44,207 bases of DNA. Source: Candidatus Fermentithermobacillaceae bacterium. Its GTDB lineage: Bacteria > Bacillota > Sulfobacillia > Fermentithermobacillales > Fermentithermobacillaceae. Of the stretch, positions 30,557 to 36,289 are shown in pieces. The notes under the pieces were generated by a model. That model was not told the DNA's origin. It saw only the letters and a program-made list of their open reading frames with translations, and searched no databases. Location: positions 65,788 through 109,994 of the forward strand of contig DULO01000093.1 in NCBI GenBank assembly GCA_012840345.1. The letters run 5' to 3'. The translations under genes and the position numbers were made by a program. Within the stretch, counting starts at the first letter, position 1, and each line of letters starts with the position of its first letter.

Positions 30557-31936
30557 CTAATGATTCAACGCGTCCTGCAATGCTTCTAGGATGACCTGCT
30601 TCACTTCGTTTTCGTCCATCTCCAAAGGTTCCTTGGAACCGACCTGAGCTAGCTGGGGGGTTCCTCCTCCCCTAGCCCCTACCAATGAGGCGATTCTGGC
30701 TGTCACCGTCCGGGCGTCCGGCTTCGAGTCGGAACTGGCCACAATCGCCTGGAACCTCGGCTCTAGCGTGAAGAAGACGGCAGGTACCTTGACCGCCTCC
30801 GATACTCGCTTCACGGCCATCCGCAGTTCTTCCACGCTCTTGCCCGGCAGGTGCTTTACCAGGGCTTCGTGGGCGGCTGCGCCGGCGGCCTCCCGGATCA
30901 TGCCGGCAATCTCCTGCTCCAGCAGGGCTTTCCGCGCGTCCTCCAGGGATTTCTCCAGGCTGACCACTTTATCGGTCAGGCCCGTTACGGCTGCCGGGAC
31001 CGACGTCCATGATTGGGACAAGATCTTGGCTGTCTCAGACAGGAACCGCTCCTTCTGCCGGTAGTCTCTGAGGGCCCGGTTTCCGCACCGGAACACGACG
31101 CGCACCCCTCCGTGGGCGCGGTCAATCTGGTTTATCTTGATCAGGCCGACTTGGCCGGTCGAGGTAACGTGGGTTCCGCCGCAGGCGCAGGCGTCAAAGT
31201 CGCCGACGTACACCACGCGGATGTTTTCGGCTGATATGGGCAACCGGGTCCTTATCTCTTCGGGAAGCTTCCCCGCCTCATACTCCTTGGCGAACACAGG
31301 GATGCTTCGGAAGACGATCTCGTTTGCCCTGTCTTCAACCCTGGCCGCGTCTTCTTCAGATAGGGACGGTATCGCCAAGTCAATGGTCACGTACTCCTCG
31401 CTCAGGTGAAAGCCGACGGTCTTGGCGTCCAAGAGTTCCTCAAAGGCACGTGACAAGATGTGCTGCCCCGTGTGCTGCTGCATCAAGTCAAACCTGAGGT
31501 CCCAGTCGATTTCACAAGTTACATTTGCGCCTCTGAGCAGGGCGGCGACCTCTTCCCGCGCGGGCGTCCCGGCCGTTCCTTCCGTATCCGCCGTCCCGGT
31601 CGTTCCTTCCCTATCTGCCGTCCTGGTCGTCTCCGCGGTCTCTGTTAGAGATGCCGCTAATGCCGTGGGGCTAAGAGATACGAAGTGGAGGATCTTGTCG
31701 CCTTCCTCAAGCACCTTGGAAACTGCCAGTTCCCCGCCCCCTAGCCTCTCTTGAATCGACTGGTCCTGGAGCCGTAACACCCCGGTGTCGGACGGCTGTC
31801 CTCCCCCTTCAGGATGGAAAATGGTCTCCTTTAGAACTACTTGTAACTGACCATCTTTAAACTCCGCCGAAAGCACTTGGGTGGAGTATGCCTTATCGAA
31901 AGGTAAATCCCAGTAAACCCGTTTGGTGCCGGTCAT
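30557..31936 (-). CDS. AlaX-type alanyl-tRNA editing protein (with DHHA1 domain)
   Basis: Hydrolyses mischarged tRNA-Ala (Ser or Gly). The product is 459 residues. The N-terminal barrel has ETIFHPEGGGQPSDTG. The editing domain carries the zinc ligands HTGQH (about residues 155-159) and CACGGTH (about 249-255). The C-terminal region is coiled coil plus DHHA1, with GARGGGTPQLAQVG. A Thr/Glu/Gly-rich insertion encoded by three 27-bp repeats separates the barrel from the editing core. The start is taken as ATG 31936; the adjacent ATG at 31939 is equally possible, and the open frame to 32044 has no ribosome site. Last of an ABC-F, nitroreductase, alaX series on the minus strand. Confidence 0.92.
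   Translation of the reverse strand: MTGTKRVYWDLPFDKAYSTQVLSAEFKDGQLQVVLKETIFHPEGGGQPSDTGVLRLQDQSIQERLGGGELAVSKVLEEGDKILHFVSLSPTALAASLTETAETTRTADREGTTGTADTEGTAGTPAREEVAALLRGANVTCEIDWDLRFDLMQQHTGQHILSRAFEELLDAKTVGFHLSEEYVTIDLAIPSLSEEDAARVEDRANEIVFRSIPVFAKEYEAGKLPEEIRTRLPISAENIRVVYVGDFDACACGGTHVTSTGQVGLIKINQIDRAHGGVRVVFRCGNRALRDYRQKERFLSETAKILSQSWTSVPAAVTGLTDKVVSLEKSLEDARKALLEQEIAGMIREAAGAAAHEALVKHLPGKSVEELRMAVKRVSEAVKVPAVFFTLEPRFQAIVASSDSKPDARTVTARIASLVGARGGGTPQLAQVGSKEPLEMDENEVKQVILEALQDALNH
31566..31646 (-). repeat. Three 27-bp tandem repeats inside the AlaX-type gene
   Basis: Units at 31566-31592, 31593-31619 and 31620-31646 (plus strand GTCCCGGCCGTTCCTTCC then GTATCCGCC, diverging in unit 3). 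The frame is kept, giving 9-residue repeats of the type TADREGTTG / TADTEGTAG. This is probably a variable-length linker. Confidence 0.75.
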
Positions 31937-32068
31937 CATGCGTCCCTCTTTCGCTATAGCACTGTCGCCTAAGCTGTCGCTTGAGCGCTGCTGCCAGGCA
32001 CGGCCGCAGGCAACGCTGCCGGAGCAGCACACCGGCACCAGCACCGGCGCGTTGCCTCGACTTCATCG

Positions 32069-32848
32069 TCAAAGCACGATGCCCTTTTCCGCCAGAAGCT
32101 GTTTCAGTATCTCGGATTGGGCCTGCCTCGCGTACTTCCTGGATATGTGTTCTCCCCAGCCATAGGTGTCGTAGTCAACCGTGTCTTCCCCGGCCTCAGG
32201 CTTGGGAATCTTGGCCCCCAGGTTCCTGTAGTATCCTTCACGGATCAAGCCGGCGTCCATCACGCTAAGCGCCTGAGCGACTTCATCCTCGGTCAGGTCG
32301 TGGTACTCGTCCTTGAACAGAACACACCATGTCGGGATGCGAGGCCTGGGACCCGGCTTTACGGCGGGATATCCGAGCGACATTCCGACCACAGGGTACA
32401 CTCTGTCCGGAAGTTTGAACATCTCGGTCAGCAAAGGCGCAATCATGGGGGCGCCGCCGAAGAAGCACGTGCCTAACCCCATGGCCTCGGCTGCCGTAAT
32501 CATGTTGGCCGCGGCGTACGCCACGTCCTGGATACCCAAGAAAAGCATCTGGACCTGGCCGGACTTGTTCTCCCTGCCCTTGTACGCGATGAACTTCTCC
32601 AGTTTCCGGAAGTCCATGCAGAACAAGATGAACACGGGCGCCTGGGCTAAGTGGCGGCCGAGGTGTTTCGCGAGGATTTCCTTCTTCTCCTTGTCGCGGG
32701 TGTAGATGAAAGCGTACATCTGCCCCGTAAACGGCGCCTGTTGAGCGGCCCTGGCCAGTTTTTCTATGACCTCATCGGGTACGTCCTTATCCAGGTAAGA
32801 ACGGACGGTCGCGCGGTTCAATATAGCGTCGAGAGCGGACTTCTCCAC
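32069..32848 (-). CDS. Nitroreductase family protein (NfsA-like)
   Basis: FMN-dependent NAD(P)H oxidoreductase. The product is 259 residues. The N-terminal FMN-binding region reads LNRATVRSYLDKDVPDEVIEKLARAAQQAPFTGQMYAFIYTRD. The centre has DVAYAAANMITAAEAMGLGTCFFGG, and VVGMSLGYPAVKPGPRPRIP follows. The C-terminal extension, with YDTYGWGEHISRKYARQ, is of the NfsA/Frp type. The physiological substrate is unknown; reduction of quinones, flavins or nitroaromatics is known in the family. It starts 30 bp after the ABC-F stop, suggesting co-transcription. Confidence 0.9.
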   Translation of the reverse strand: MEKSALDAILNRATVRSYLDKDVPDEVIEKLARAAQQAPFTGQMYAFIYTRDKEKKEILAKHLGRHLAQAPVFILFCMDFRKLEKFIAYKGRENKSGQVQMLFLGIQDVAYAAANMITAAEAMGLGTCFFGGAPMIAPLLTEMFKLPDRVYPVVGMSLGYPAVKPGPRPRIPTWCVLFKDEYHDLTEDEVAQALSVMDAGLIREGYYRNLGAKIPKPEAGEDTVDYDTYGWGEHISRKYARQAQSEILKQLLAEKGIVL

Positions 32849-32878: not shown

Positions 32879-35005
32879 CTAGTTTTTCTCATCGGCCTCT
32901 TGCTTTCCTGCCAGGGCGGTCCCGAGCTCCTCCCATTTTGCGTAGAGAGCCTCAAGCTCCTTTTCCAGTTCGCTGAACTCCTTCATGGGCAGTTCTTTGG
33001 GATTTCCGTAGGAAGACGGGTCCCGGAAGAGCTCAAGCATTTCTTCTTTTCTGGCTTCCAAGACCTCTATCTCCGACTCGAGACGCTGCAGTTCACGCAT
33101 CCGCTCCCGCGTTTCCGCGTCCACAGTCCTCTGTGGTTTCCCCGAAGGCTGTCCCGTGGATTTGTCGGCTTTGTCGGATTTCCCGTGTTGAGGCGCCTTG
33201 CCGGACGCAGCCGCCCTGCCTGACGTTACCCTACCTGAGGGAGACACCCTGCCACCTGGTTGAGACGGGGCGACCCTAGCACCCCCTCGTCCGGCTCCGG
33301 ATGGCGACCTCCTCAAGAAAACGAACGATGGCCGTTCCTCCTCATAGATTATCTCGGCGCCGGATTCCACTTTCTCCCTGTACTCCGAGTAGGTGCCCTT
33401 GAATATGTGAATGGTCTCGCCATCGAATATCCAAAGGTGGGTAGCGATGCGGTCAATGAAGAACCTATCGTGGGACGCGAAAATAACCGTGCCGGGAAAA
33501 TCCTTCAAAGCCCGTTCCAGGACTTCCTTAGAGGCCATGTCCAAGTGGTTTGTGGGCTCGTCAAGAAACAGAAGGTTGCCCTTACCTGCCACGAGCTTGG
33601 TGAGGGCAAGGCGGTTCCTCTCGCCTCCCGACAGTTTGCCGACGGACTTCTCTACCTCGTCCCCGGAGAACAAGAACCTGCCCAGGAGATCGCGGCACGC
33701 CTGAGGCTCGAGCCCAAGCGAATGGACTTCTTCGTACAGGGTGTTCTGGTCGTTCAGGTCGTCCTGGCCCTGAGTGAAAAACCCGGTAACCACGTTTTGC
33801 CCGTATTTCACGGTGCCTGAGTACCCGCGGTCGGTCCCCGCCAGACAGCGCAGAAGCGTGGTCTTACCGCACCCATTGGGACCTACCAGCGCCGCGCGGT
33901 CGCCCTTGCGACACAGCCACGTGAAATTGTGAAAGAGACGCCGCATCTCTCCCGTCGGCTCGTCGTCCGAACCAATGACCGGGAACTCTCTGGAAAGGTC
34001 CTCTATCCAAAGGACCTCATCGCCAGATTCCACCTCAGTCTCGAACCGGAGTCCCATGGTCTTCTTCTCCTGCTTGGGTTTCTCCACCAGTTCCAGACGC
34101 TCAAGCATCTTCTCGCGACTCCGGGCTTGGCCGACACGAGTGGGCGTCGCCTTCCACTTCTTGATGAAGGCAGTGGTCCTTTCGATGAGCTCCTGCTGCC
34201 GCCTGTACGCTTCGGCTTGCAGCCTAAACTCCAGTTCCTTTTGCCGGACGTAAGCAGAGTAGTTACCCGTGTAGACCTTACCGTCTCCCCGGTCGAGTTC
34301 GATGATCTTGTGAGCCACCTTGTCCAGGAAATATCTGTCATGACTCACCAGCAGGACTCCGCCAGGATACGTACTGAGAAAACCTTCGAGCCACTCGACG
34401 CCGGGCAAATCCAGGTGGTTGGTGGGCTCGTCGAGCATCAGGAGGTCGGGTTCCAAAAGAAGGAGTCTCGCGAGGGTAAGCCTCACCCGTTCGCCACCTG
34501 AGAGGACGGAGACGTCCTTATGGAATTCGTCCGTGGTAAATCCCAGACCGGTCAAGATAGACTTGGCTTTGTGCTCCAGACTGTAGCCGTCCTGGGATTC
34601 AAAACGGGCCGTAGCCCTGGCATATTCGTCGAGAAGCTCCTCCATGCGGCGGGCATCTTCAGGGGATTCTTGGCCTATCCGGGCCATCTCTTCTTCAAGA
34701 AACGCAAGCTTGGACGAGAGGTCGGCGATGTCTTTTCTTGAAGACAGGGTTACAGACAAGACCGTCCCGTCCACAAGGGGTATGTCCTGCGACAAGTAGC
34801 CGAGAGTTCTCTTGCCGACGAGGCTTACGGATCCTTCGTCCGGCTCCAGCTCCCCCGCGATGACTCTGAGCAGCGTGGTCTTGCCTTCTCCGTTTCGGCC
34901 GATAACCGCGACTTTTTCTCCCTGTCCCACGGTGAAGGAAATGGATTTGAATATCAGTCTCGCGCCGAAATACTTAGCGAGGTTATTGGCGACTAGTACA
35001 GTCAT
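32879..35005 (-). CDS. ABC-F family ATPase (YdiF-like)
   Basis: Soluble protein with two ABC domains and no membrane part. ABC-F proteins act on the ribosome, as translation factors or by giving antibiotic protection. The product is 708 residues. ABC1 has GRNGEGKTTLL, LSGGERVRLTLARLL and LLMLDEPTNHLD; the P-site/linker helices follow (about residues 250-315). ABC2 has GPNGCGKTTLL, LSGGERNRLALTKL and LLFLDEPTNHLD. A low-complexity basic linker (about 565-630) leads to a C-terminal coiled coil ending LEALYAKWEELG. The start is ATG 35005 with GGAGGG upstream. A promoter, leader ORF and hairpin lie ahead of it, so regulation by ribosome stalling is plausible. Confidence 0.93.
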   Translation of the reverse strand: MTVLVANNLAKYFGARLIFKSISFTVGQGEKVAVIGRNGEGKTTLLRVIAGELEPDEGSVSLVGKRTLGYLSQDIPLVDGTVLSVTLSSRKDIADLSSKLAFLEEEMARIGQESPEDARRMEELLDEYARATARFESQDGYSLEHKAKSILTGLGFTTDEFHKDVSVLSGGERVRLTLARLLLLEPDLLMLDEPTNHLDLPGVEWLEGFLSTYPGGVLLVSHDRYFLDKVAHKIIELDRGDGKVYTGNYSAYVRQKELEFRLQAEAYRRQQELIERTTAFIKKWKATPTRVGQARSREKMLERLELVEKPKQEKKTMGLRFETEVESGDEVLWIEDLSREFPVIGSDDEPTGEMRRLFHNFTWLCRKGDRAALVGPNGCGKTTLLRCLAGTDRGYSGTVKYGQNVVTGFFTQGQDDLNDQNTLYEEVHSLGLEPQACRDLLGRFLFSGDEVEKSVGKLSGGERNRLALTKLVAGKGNLLFLDEPTNHLDMASKEVLERALKDFPGTVIFASHDRFFIDRIATHLWIFDGETIHIFKGTYSEYREKVESGAEIIYEEERPSFVFLRRSPSGAGRGGARVAPSQPGGRVSPSGRVTSGRAAASGKAPQHGKSDKADKSTGQPSGKPQRTVDAETRERMRELQRLESEIEVLEARKEEMLELFRDPSSYGNPKELPMKEFSELEKELEALYAKWEELGTALAGKQEADEKN

Positions 35006-35051
35006 GTTGAAGTCCCTCCGGGATAATGGCGATCGTTTGTTCGAGACAGCA

Positions 35052-35084
35052 AGGCATAGTGAGGCTAGGCTTGGCTAGATGCCT
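35052..35084 (-). promoter_or_regulatory. Leader hairpin overlapping the leader ORF stop codon
   Basis: AGGCAT (35052-35057) and ATGCCT (35079-35084) form a stem whose loop contains the leader stop codon (35077-35075). Within it, AGGC/GCCT segments allow an alternative pairing. It ends about 46 nt before the ABC-F start. There is no T-run, so if it is regulatory it would act at translation or together with another structure. Confidence 0.4.
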
Positions 35085-35119
35085 CTTTGGAGAACTACGC
35101 CTCTCGAACTCGATACCAT
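35075..35119 (-). CDS. Candidate leader peptide upstream of the ABC-F gene
   Basis: A 14-codon ORF, MVSSSRGVVLQRGI then TAG. It has the best Shine-Dalgarno in the area: AAAGGAG at plus-strand 35128-35134, 8 nt before ATG 35119. It lies inside the leader between the candidate promoter (35198-35225) and the ABC-F start (35005), and a hairpin overlaps its stop. Short leader ORFs of this kind control several antibiotic-resistance ABC-F genes through drug-stalled ribosomes. Translation and function here are inferred from layout only. Confidence 0.45.
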   Translation of the reverse strand: MVSSSRGVVLQRGI

Positions 35120-35197
35120 CTCCGAAGCTCCTTTCGTGACTTCAAGACAGGACATCAGAGCGGATAGTGAACGCGGATGAAATCTCGCGCCCATACG

Positions 35198-35225
35198 ACT
35201 ATACCATTACCGTCAAGGAGAACAA
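35198..35225 (-). promoter_or_regulatory. Candidate extended -10 promoter for the ABC-F operon
   Basis: On the minus strand TTGTTC (35225-35220), 16 bp, then TATAGT (35203-35198) preceded by TGG, an extended -10. It would give a leader of about 185 nt before the ABC-F start. Confidence 0.5.
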
Positions 35226-35247: not shown

Positions 35248-35269
35248 CTTCTCGCCCCGGTGCGAGAAG
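35248..35269. other. Hairpin at the left edge of the 31-bp array
   Basis: CTTCTCGC (35248-35255), loop CCCGGT, GCGAGAAG (35262-35269): a perfect 8-bp stem that overlaps the first array unit by two bases. It may mark the array boundary. Confidence 0.5.
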
Positions 35270-35671
35270 TAGCAGGATTCATACCACCGAGCGGAGGTAG
35301 TTGTAGGATTTCTACCACCGAGCCGAGGCAGTAGTAGAACTCGTACGACTAAGCCGGGGTGGTTGTAGAATTCCTACAACCGAGCCGAGGTAGAAGTAGA
35401 ATTTCTACGACTGAGCTGAGGCAGTGGTAGGATTCTTACCACCGAGCCGGGGTAGTAGTAGAATTCCTACCACCGAGCCGAGACGGTGGTAGAATTCTTA
35501 CCACCGAGCCAAGGTAGTAGTAGAATACCTACCACCGAGCTGAGGCAGTAAGTAGAATTCCTACAACTGAGCCGAGGTGGTCGTAGGATTCCTACCACCG
35601 CTCCGAGGCAGTAGTAAGATTCTTACCACTTACCCGAGGTAGTGGTAGAATTTCTACCACAAGGCCCGGTT
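35268..35671. repeat. Array of thirteen 31-bp palindromic tandem repeats
   Basis: Units start at 35268, 35299, 35330, 35361, 35392, 35423, 35454, 35485, 35516, 35547 (32 bp), 35579, 35610 and 35641. Each is a dyad close to GTRGTAGAATTCCTACYAC followed by a conserved CGAGCCGAGGY linker; there are no unique spacers. Paired changes keep the symmetry: unit 4 has T-A where units 6, 8 and 13 have G-C at dyad positions 3/17, and unit 12 has A-T instead of G-C at 7/13. The last linker base alternates T/C in most neighbouring units, hinting at growth by 62-bp duplications. 31 bp is close to three helical turns. The unit length and stops in every frame argue against coding. Confidence 0.95.
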
Positions 35672-36140: not shown

Positions 36141-36171
36141 AATGGTGTATCATATAGGCACAAACAAGCGC

Positions 36172-36239
36172 GGTTCTGATTACGGTTTGGTTCGGACTAC
36201 GGTTCGCTTCTGATTACGGTTCGGTTCCGATTACGGTTC
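36172..36239. repeat. Four 17-bp tandem repeats upstream of the GNAT gene
   Basis: GGTTCTGATTACGGTTT, GGTTCGGACTACGGTTC, GCTTCTGATTACGGTTC and GGTTCCGATTACGGTTC run head to tail, ending 50 bp before the GNAT start. They could be regulator sites or simple repeats. Confidence 0.8.
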
Positions 36240-36289
36240 GCGGTGCCATTCTGAGTGACGAACTCTAGGCCGGGAGGCGCGCAGGAATA

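Follow-up and report, generated by a model that had tools for sequence, protein, structure and literature searches.

The ABC-F gene and its upstream region

The window, which is the whole 44,207-nucleotide stretch of Candidatus Fermentithermobacillaceae DNA analyzed here, carries on its minus strand an ABC-F gene followed by two further genes and preceded by a short leader open reading frame (ORF). The genes and leader signals are as follows.

32879..35005 (ATG at 35005), minus strand: ABC-F ATPase of 708 aa with a Uup/YdiF-type C-terminal domain (NF000355; PF00005 twice, PF12848, PF16326)
32069..32848, minus strand: nitroreductase-family protein, probably co-transcribed (PF00881)
30557..32044, minus strand: AlaX-like alanyl-tRNA editing protein, which probably starts downstream of the GTG listed for it (PF07973, PF02272)
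35198..35206, minus strand: extended -10 promoter candidate TGG-TATAGT, from the sequence, with an equivalent site in g2 relatives and G047
35128..35134, minus strand: leader Shine-Dalgarno (SD) AAAGGAG, from the sequence; relatives keep AAAGGAG or AAAGGGG
35075..35119 (ATG at 35119 to TAG at 35075), minus strand: leader ORF of 14 codons encoding MVSSSRGVVLQRGI, with orthologous ORFs in 15 other loci

The original prediction had placed an extended -10 element, a 14-codon ORF, and a well-spaced AAAGGAG ahead of the ABC-F gene, and all of these were found at the expected place on the minus strand. The AAAGGAG is separated from the leader ATG by 8 nt and, as judged from the extended -10 element, transcription would start near 35191. 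A TATAGT lies at the matching position in the g2 relatives, where it is preceded by TG, and in G047, where it occurs alone; the promoters of other family members are of the TTGACT-N17-TGGTA type. When dinucleotide shuffles of the region were searched, an ATG ORF of 10 to 16 codons with a comparably strong SD was present in 0.4% of them and one with a loose SD in 4.7%. No Rfam family was matched in the window at the gathering score, and the leaders of the relatives gave tRNA only. A search of the literature outside subscription journals returned no description of the element.

The ABC-F protein passed the cut-off of NF000355, the NCBIfam model for generic ribosomal protection-like ABC-F proteins (427 versus 380 bits), and missed the cut-offs of all of the named resistance ABC-F models (OptrA, 338 versus 1450 bits; Vga, 371 versus 725; Msr, 316 versus 680; Lsa, 215 versus 750). 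It carries the PF16326 C-terminal domain and aligns with almost the entire linker model PF12848, and it is probably a member of the broad YdiF group, which is paraphyletic and not placeable in the better-defined subfamilies (PMC6723617). The leader had been proposed to switch on the ABC-F, nitroreductase, and alaX genes together. Control of the ABC-F gene is probable, but comparison of gene neighborhoods showed that the other two adjoin it in genera g1 and g2 only, so that neither can be the original purpose of a switch; both were rejected in that role and are passengers at most.

Just upstream of the ABC-F promoter, positions 35268-35660 hold 12.6 copies of a 31-bp unit with an imperfect 19-nt palindrome (like GTNGTAGAATTCCTACNAC). 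Related arrays with periods of 31, 62, or 124 bp occur in at least eight other places in the same genome (L076-L085), and 31 bp corresponds to approximately three helical turns. No array of this kind was seen upstream of the gene in the relatives, and the array was rejected as a component of the switch. A 17-bp repeat, CGGTTCTGATTACGGTT, is present in 4.1 copies at 36171-36240, before a GNAT acetyltransferase gene.

Conservation of the leader ORF and its hairpin

At E < 1e-60, the ABC-F protein has orthologs in 105 of the 154 genomes that represent the class. Sixteen genomes of the window's order, its own among them, have the ortholog, and in 15 of these a leader ORF preceded by a strong SD is located 96 to 114 nt before the ABC-F start. 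There are 16 leader loci in total: those of the 14 other genomes of the order, that of the window, and an apparently horizontally acquired sixteenth copy in G047, a genome of another family (L035 / L095, G047:C2; peptide (GTG)IERSNGVVMQSRA). The lack of conservation that had been named as a refutation was not found: both the leader ORF and a hairpin that sequesters the ABC-F SD are kept in 16 loci. The conserved frames are 11 to 14 codons long, with that of G010 extended to 15; in G009 the leader frame was lost and the 3' strand of the hairpin was retained. The peptides are related, most having R or Q followed by G and a C-terminal I, V, or L. Those of g2 are MIKGSRGVGLQSGV, MISVSRGAGLQIRV, MIKGSRGVGLQSGV again, and MVKGSRGVGLQSAV, that of family f2 is MVRSRDVLQLGL, found twice, and the remaining f1 peptides are MQSSQGHMMRV, MASLQGYMMRI, MASLQVHMMRK, MVSLHGHIIAI, MWSFRGYLMRI, MCSFQGYLIRI, MRTFQGYLMRI, and the extended MCSFQGYLIRNQRFD. 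In four f1 leaders, the last three residues before the stop are MRI or MRV, the Met being encoded by ATG.

Every leader-bearing ABC-F protein fell within one supported clade of the tree, which makes a single origin of the leader likely. The G047 protein clustered with the g1 and g2 proteins (support, 100/99), and the two listed congeners of G047 have no close ABC-F ortholog; from these two observations, it is likely that the ABC-F gene and its leader moved together into G047 by horizontal transfer. The leader was absent from the orthologs sampled in the remaining families of the class, as it was from 13 orthologs of other classes. A covariance model built on the f1 group scored group A and f2 below significance, and a second model was therefore built. 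The two models jointly matched 14 of the 154 genomes of the class, at one locus per genome and always at the ABC-F start.

In the f1-group alignment, identity dropped from 0.77 over codons 5 to 11 to 0.28 just after the stop. The position of the stop is conserved, yet TAG, TAA, and TGA are all in use. When the observed substitutions were placed randomly, each sequence alone kept its frame and stop with a probability of 0.24 to 0.68; the product of these values is small, and it falls short of proof because the sequences are related, so that retention of the frame supports selection without proving it. The pN/pS ratios of 0.59 and 0.93 indicate that selection at the amino acid level is weak, and constraint on the RNA at synonymous sites would also yield such ratios, which confounds their reading as selection.

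Folding of the leader RNA gave the following elements.

35138..35145, minus strand: UUGAAGUC, 5' strand of a basal helix, pairing with GACUUCAA at 35014-35007 (minimum-energy fold; the window's member only)
35122..35127, minus strand: CUUCGG, the anti-SD within the spacer between leader SD and leader start, pairing with CCGGAG at 35021-35016 (folds; equivalents in relatives)
35102..35109, minus strand: GUUCGAGA, 5' strand of the middle stem within the leader ORF, pairing with UCUCGAAC (folds)
35039..35046, minus strand: UCUCGAAC, 3' strand of the middle stem, with CGAAC kept in most relatives
35061..35085, minus strand: apical hairpin GAGGC-N15-GCCUC over the leader stop codon (fold; variable among relatives)
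35014..35019, minus strand: ABC-F SD GGAGGG, sequestered as computed (pairing probability)

The conserved RNA is mainly a long hairpin with the leader ORF inside it, not the small hairpin at the stop codon. The latter had been predicted across the leader stop and is indeed present at 35085-35061, but a longer fold contains it as no more than a variable tip, in a region where identity past the stop is 0.28. In the computed larger hairpin, 35145-35102 pairs with 35046-35007, covering the ABC-F SD. The fold energy of the window's element was -47.9 kcal/mol, compared to -36.8 kcal/mol for shuffles (z = -2.9); a wider stretch of the window, folded separately, gave a z of -2.0, and 11 of 15 elements had a z below -2.5. 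When each element was folded separately, nearly all members shared one layout, in which the spacer that separates leader SD and leader start is paired to the ABC-F SD, the leader start codon and early codons pair higher up, and the 5' half is taken up by the leader ORF. The probability that the ABC-F SD pairs with leader positions -14 to +3 was 0.66 in the window and 0.72 to 1.0 in 14 relatives. G003 (L012) is an exception, as its minimum-energy fold drops the SD pairing once more upstream sequence is added. The letters of this pairing differ among genera (CUUCGG:CCGGAG, GUUCUCCU:AGGAGGAC, GAGACUUCCUUGG:CCAAGGAGGUCUC, CCUUACCUGG:CCAGGGAGG, and CCUUACCUGA:UCAGGGAGG). In the f1 group, 87.5% of alignment cells were paired, compared to 37 to 64% in a control with the partner strand slid, and compensatory double changes were few (three pairs in the f1 group and two in group A).

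Other families of the class have a second type of leader before their ABC-F ortholog. It consists of short ORFs (for example, MMLLVSPVCAVRA and MAPSPCLMQKGFRG, each closed by a stop) and then a hairpin, AAGGGG-NCAGUCUN-CCCUUUU. At L036, L038, L041, L042, L044, L046, L050, L069, and L074, a short ORF is followed by the conserved hairpin AAGGGGNCAGTCTNCCCTTTT, and several of the leaders of this type carry a further terminator-like hairpin. With one mismatch allowed, the hairpin pattern occurred eight times in the 154 genomes, seven times before an ABC-F gene and once before a gene for an MFS-like transporter; the reversed control gave no occurrence. At L100 (G094:C23, ~557-577), the same hairpin and an upstream short ORF precede what appears, from a translation judged by eye, to be an MFS transporter gene. 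The presence of separate terminator-type leaders before orthologs elsewhere in the class suggests that control of ABC-F genes was invented there repeatedly.

Candidate mechanism, trigger, and alternatives

We consider the leader to be a ribosome-gated translation attenuator of the ABC-F gene, with a probability of approximately 0.7. In the resting state, the ABC-F SD region would form the 3' strand of the long hairpin, and the spacer between leader SD and start, together with the first leader codons, would form its 5' strand. Because the leader is transcribed first, a ribosome could load on it before the 3' strand exists. Normal clearance of the leader would let the hairpin shut and leave the ABC-F gene poorly translated; a ribosome held at the leader start or first codons would occupy the anti-SD and allow ABC-F translation. 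Alternatively, the anti-SD could be occupied by a queue behind a ribosome stuck at the end of the 11- to 14-codon frame. We infer that the leader is translated and that stalling on it opens the hairpin.

The cost of opening the ABC-F SD was computed with a 30-nt ribosome footprint masked at each leader codon. The mean cost was 11.8 kcal/mol for the free RNA, approximately 7 kcal/mol with a ribosome on codons 1 to 6, 11.6 kcal/mol with a ribosome at the last codon, and 8.1 kcal/mol when the entire leader was masked, the state expected for two ribosomes in a queue. This profile suggests that the anatomy favors a ribosome near the leader start or a queue, the frame being approximately one ribosome long. 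Stalling at the stop codon was rejected as the direct opener, as no opening of the SD was computed there without a second ribosome. Almost no opening was obtained in this model for the window's own sequence (9.0 kcal/mol free versus 8.3 to 11.9), partly because the leader SD sits within the region closed by the basal helix UUGAAGUC:GACUUCAA. The comparison of folding with and without leader coverage that had been called for thus gave a lower mean cost for codons 1 to 6 but a negligible effect for the window itself. The claim that the position of a ribosome on the leader governs the ABC-F gene gained from the conservation of the ORF and the SD-sequestering hairpin, but the relevant hairpin is other than the one that had been named.

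With regard to what trips the switch, drugs that act on the peptidyl transferase or on early elongation are a tentative choice at somewhat less than even odds, a shortage of the ABC-F protein itself is a rather doubtful one, and the general state of translation is more doubtful still. Initiation-stage or early-elongation inhibitors would fit both geometry and precedent, and self-sensing by the ABC-F protein would fit its apparent non-resistance type and the precedents for it. Drug sensing, as originally predicted, was not supported: the cut-offs for named resistance proteins were missed, and the peptides are unlike those of the vmlR, lsaA, and msrD leaders. The macrolide-arrest motif +x+ (Arg/Lys-X-Arg/Lys) is absent from the window peptide and is not conserved among those of its relatives. 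The known peptides of ABC-F drug leaders are MIN, MR[I/M], MK[L/Q], MAGN, and MYLIFM (PMC10201436, PMC10314930), and this consensus is not found in the leaders described here, the C-terminal MRI or MRV occurring in four f1 members only. Attenuation by amino acid starvation was rejected, as the leaders have no run of codons for one amino acid.

An unlikely but substantive alternative is autoregulation, in which the leader peptide is hard to translate and the ABC-F protein relieves the difficulty, so that low ABC-F leaves lingering ribosomes and more ABC-F is made with no drug involved, and sufficient ABC-F shuts the switch. It is similarly unlikely that the leader peptide is the natural stalling substrate of an uncharacterized non-resistance ABC-F subfamily, with ribosome dwell time reporting ABC-F activity and setting ABC-F synthesis through a one-hairpin design in which the leader's initiation site is the anti-SD. 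Autoregulation gains from the leader tracking the ABC-F gene rather than its neighbors and having apparently moved with it to G047, from the ABC-F protein not being of a named resistance type, and from two precedents, the action of E. coli EttA on the MgtL leader (PMC11282234) and the feedback of MsrD on its own leader (PMC10314930). However, the peptides have no known ABC-F substrate signature (no polyproline and almost no acidic residues), and the terminator-type leaders of the other families, one of them also before an MFS efflux gene, resemble the leaders of drug-induced genes.

The other explanations are less probable. That the hairpin merely sets a low basal level, passively or as an RNA thermometer, with the ORF delivering ribosomes and no stalling signal, is improbable, even though the computed opening requires just the presence of a ribosome near the leader start and constraint on the peptide is not strong; late codons that are part of no stem match much of the paired sequence in conservation, and the stop is retained by means of different codons. 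Slightly less probable again is transcription attenuation, in which the long hairpin would act as an intrinsic terminator immediately ahead of the ABC-F start and leader ribosomes would block it. A U7 follows the SD-sequestering stem in the g4 relatives and a U4 in g5, the U7 of L010 and L012 lying directly after the stem and before the ABC-F start in a terminator-like placement on the start codon. In addition, leaders in other families of the class have a terminator-like hairpin with U4, and cplR terminates at its own start codon by the same logic (PMC10201436). Against this, the window and g2 have no U-run past the stem, a consensus scan of the window leader found no intrinsic terminator, and the loop is very long. 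Transcription attenuation may, by analogy with cplR (PMC10201436), have been added in the relatives with U-runs (U7 in g4 and U4 in g5). A chance ORF beside a chance hairpin is scarcely credible: short ORFs with a loose SD do arise in approximately 5% of shuffled regions, but this explanation is refuted by 16 loci that share the orthologous ORF and the pairing of the SD.

If the ribosome-gated attenuator is the correct reading, leader control that senses ribosomes reaches beyond the proven resistance ABC-F proteins to a further ABC-F subfamily, and the leader is a natural short substrate for probing the role of that subfamily on the ribosome. With leader start and gene start joined through one helix, the single-hairpin layout is compact and easily rebuilt.

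Comparison with known leader systems

In translation attenuators of the cat and ermC type, a ribosome on the leader frees a sequestered SD, and this is what the window leader is predicted to share with them. Their 5' strand is located at the stall codon or beyond it, whereas that of the window begins upstream of the leader start codon. Among the leaders of ABC-F genes, that of cplR in Clostridioides difficile, whose upstream ORF (uORF) is MRI, likewise has a short uORF inside a hairpin and a sequestered ABC-F SD that a stalled ribosome is predicted to free (PMC10201436), and four f1 leaders end in the same MRI or in MRV. The cplR leader differs in that its uORF has 3 codons and its RNA forms two hairpins and includes a true terminator (PMC10201436); the element described here has one long hairpin, a frame of 11 to 14 codons, and a leader start region that serves as anti-SD, and in the window it lacks a U-run. 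The vmlR leader of Bacillus subtilis (uORF MIN) also controls an ABC-F gene by attenuation, and its uORF, preceded by a good SD, sits at the foot of a stem-loop. It differs in using an antiterminator and a terminator as well as a separate hairpin for the SD, and the ABC-F protein that it controls is a proven resistance factor (PMC9226507). In the msrD system, a leader peptide, MsrDL (MYLIFM), controls an ABC-F gene, and the feedback by the ABC-F protein itself could be a further likeness; its erythromycin-dependent arrest at the stop codon and Rho-independent terminator set it apart, and its peptide is unrelated (PMC10314930). No intrinsic terminator, a feature of drug-induced uORF leaders, is present in the window leader, and U-runs are found only in the g4 and g5 relatives. 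The window leader does have what the uORF leaders of the resistance genes vmlR, cplR, lsaA, and msrD have, namely, a short ORF with its own SD and, as computed, a sequestered ABC-F SD. We regard the element as a variant of an already known kind, the uORF-controlled ABC-F genes.
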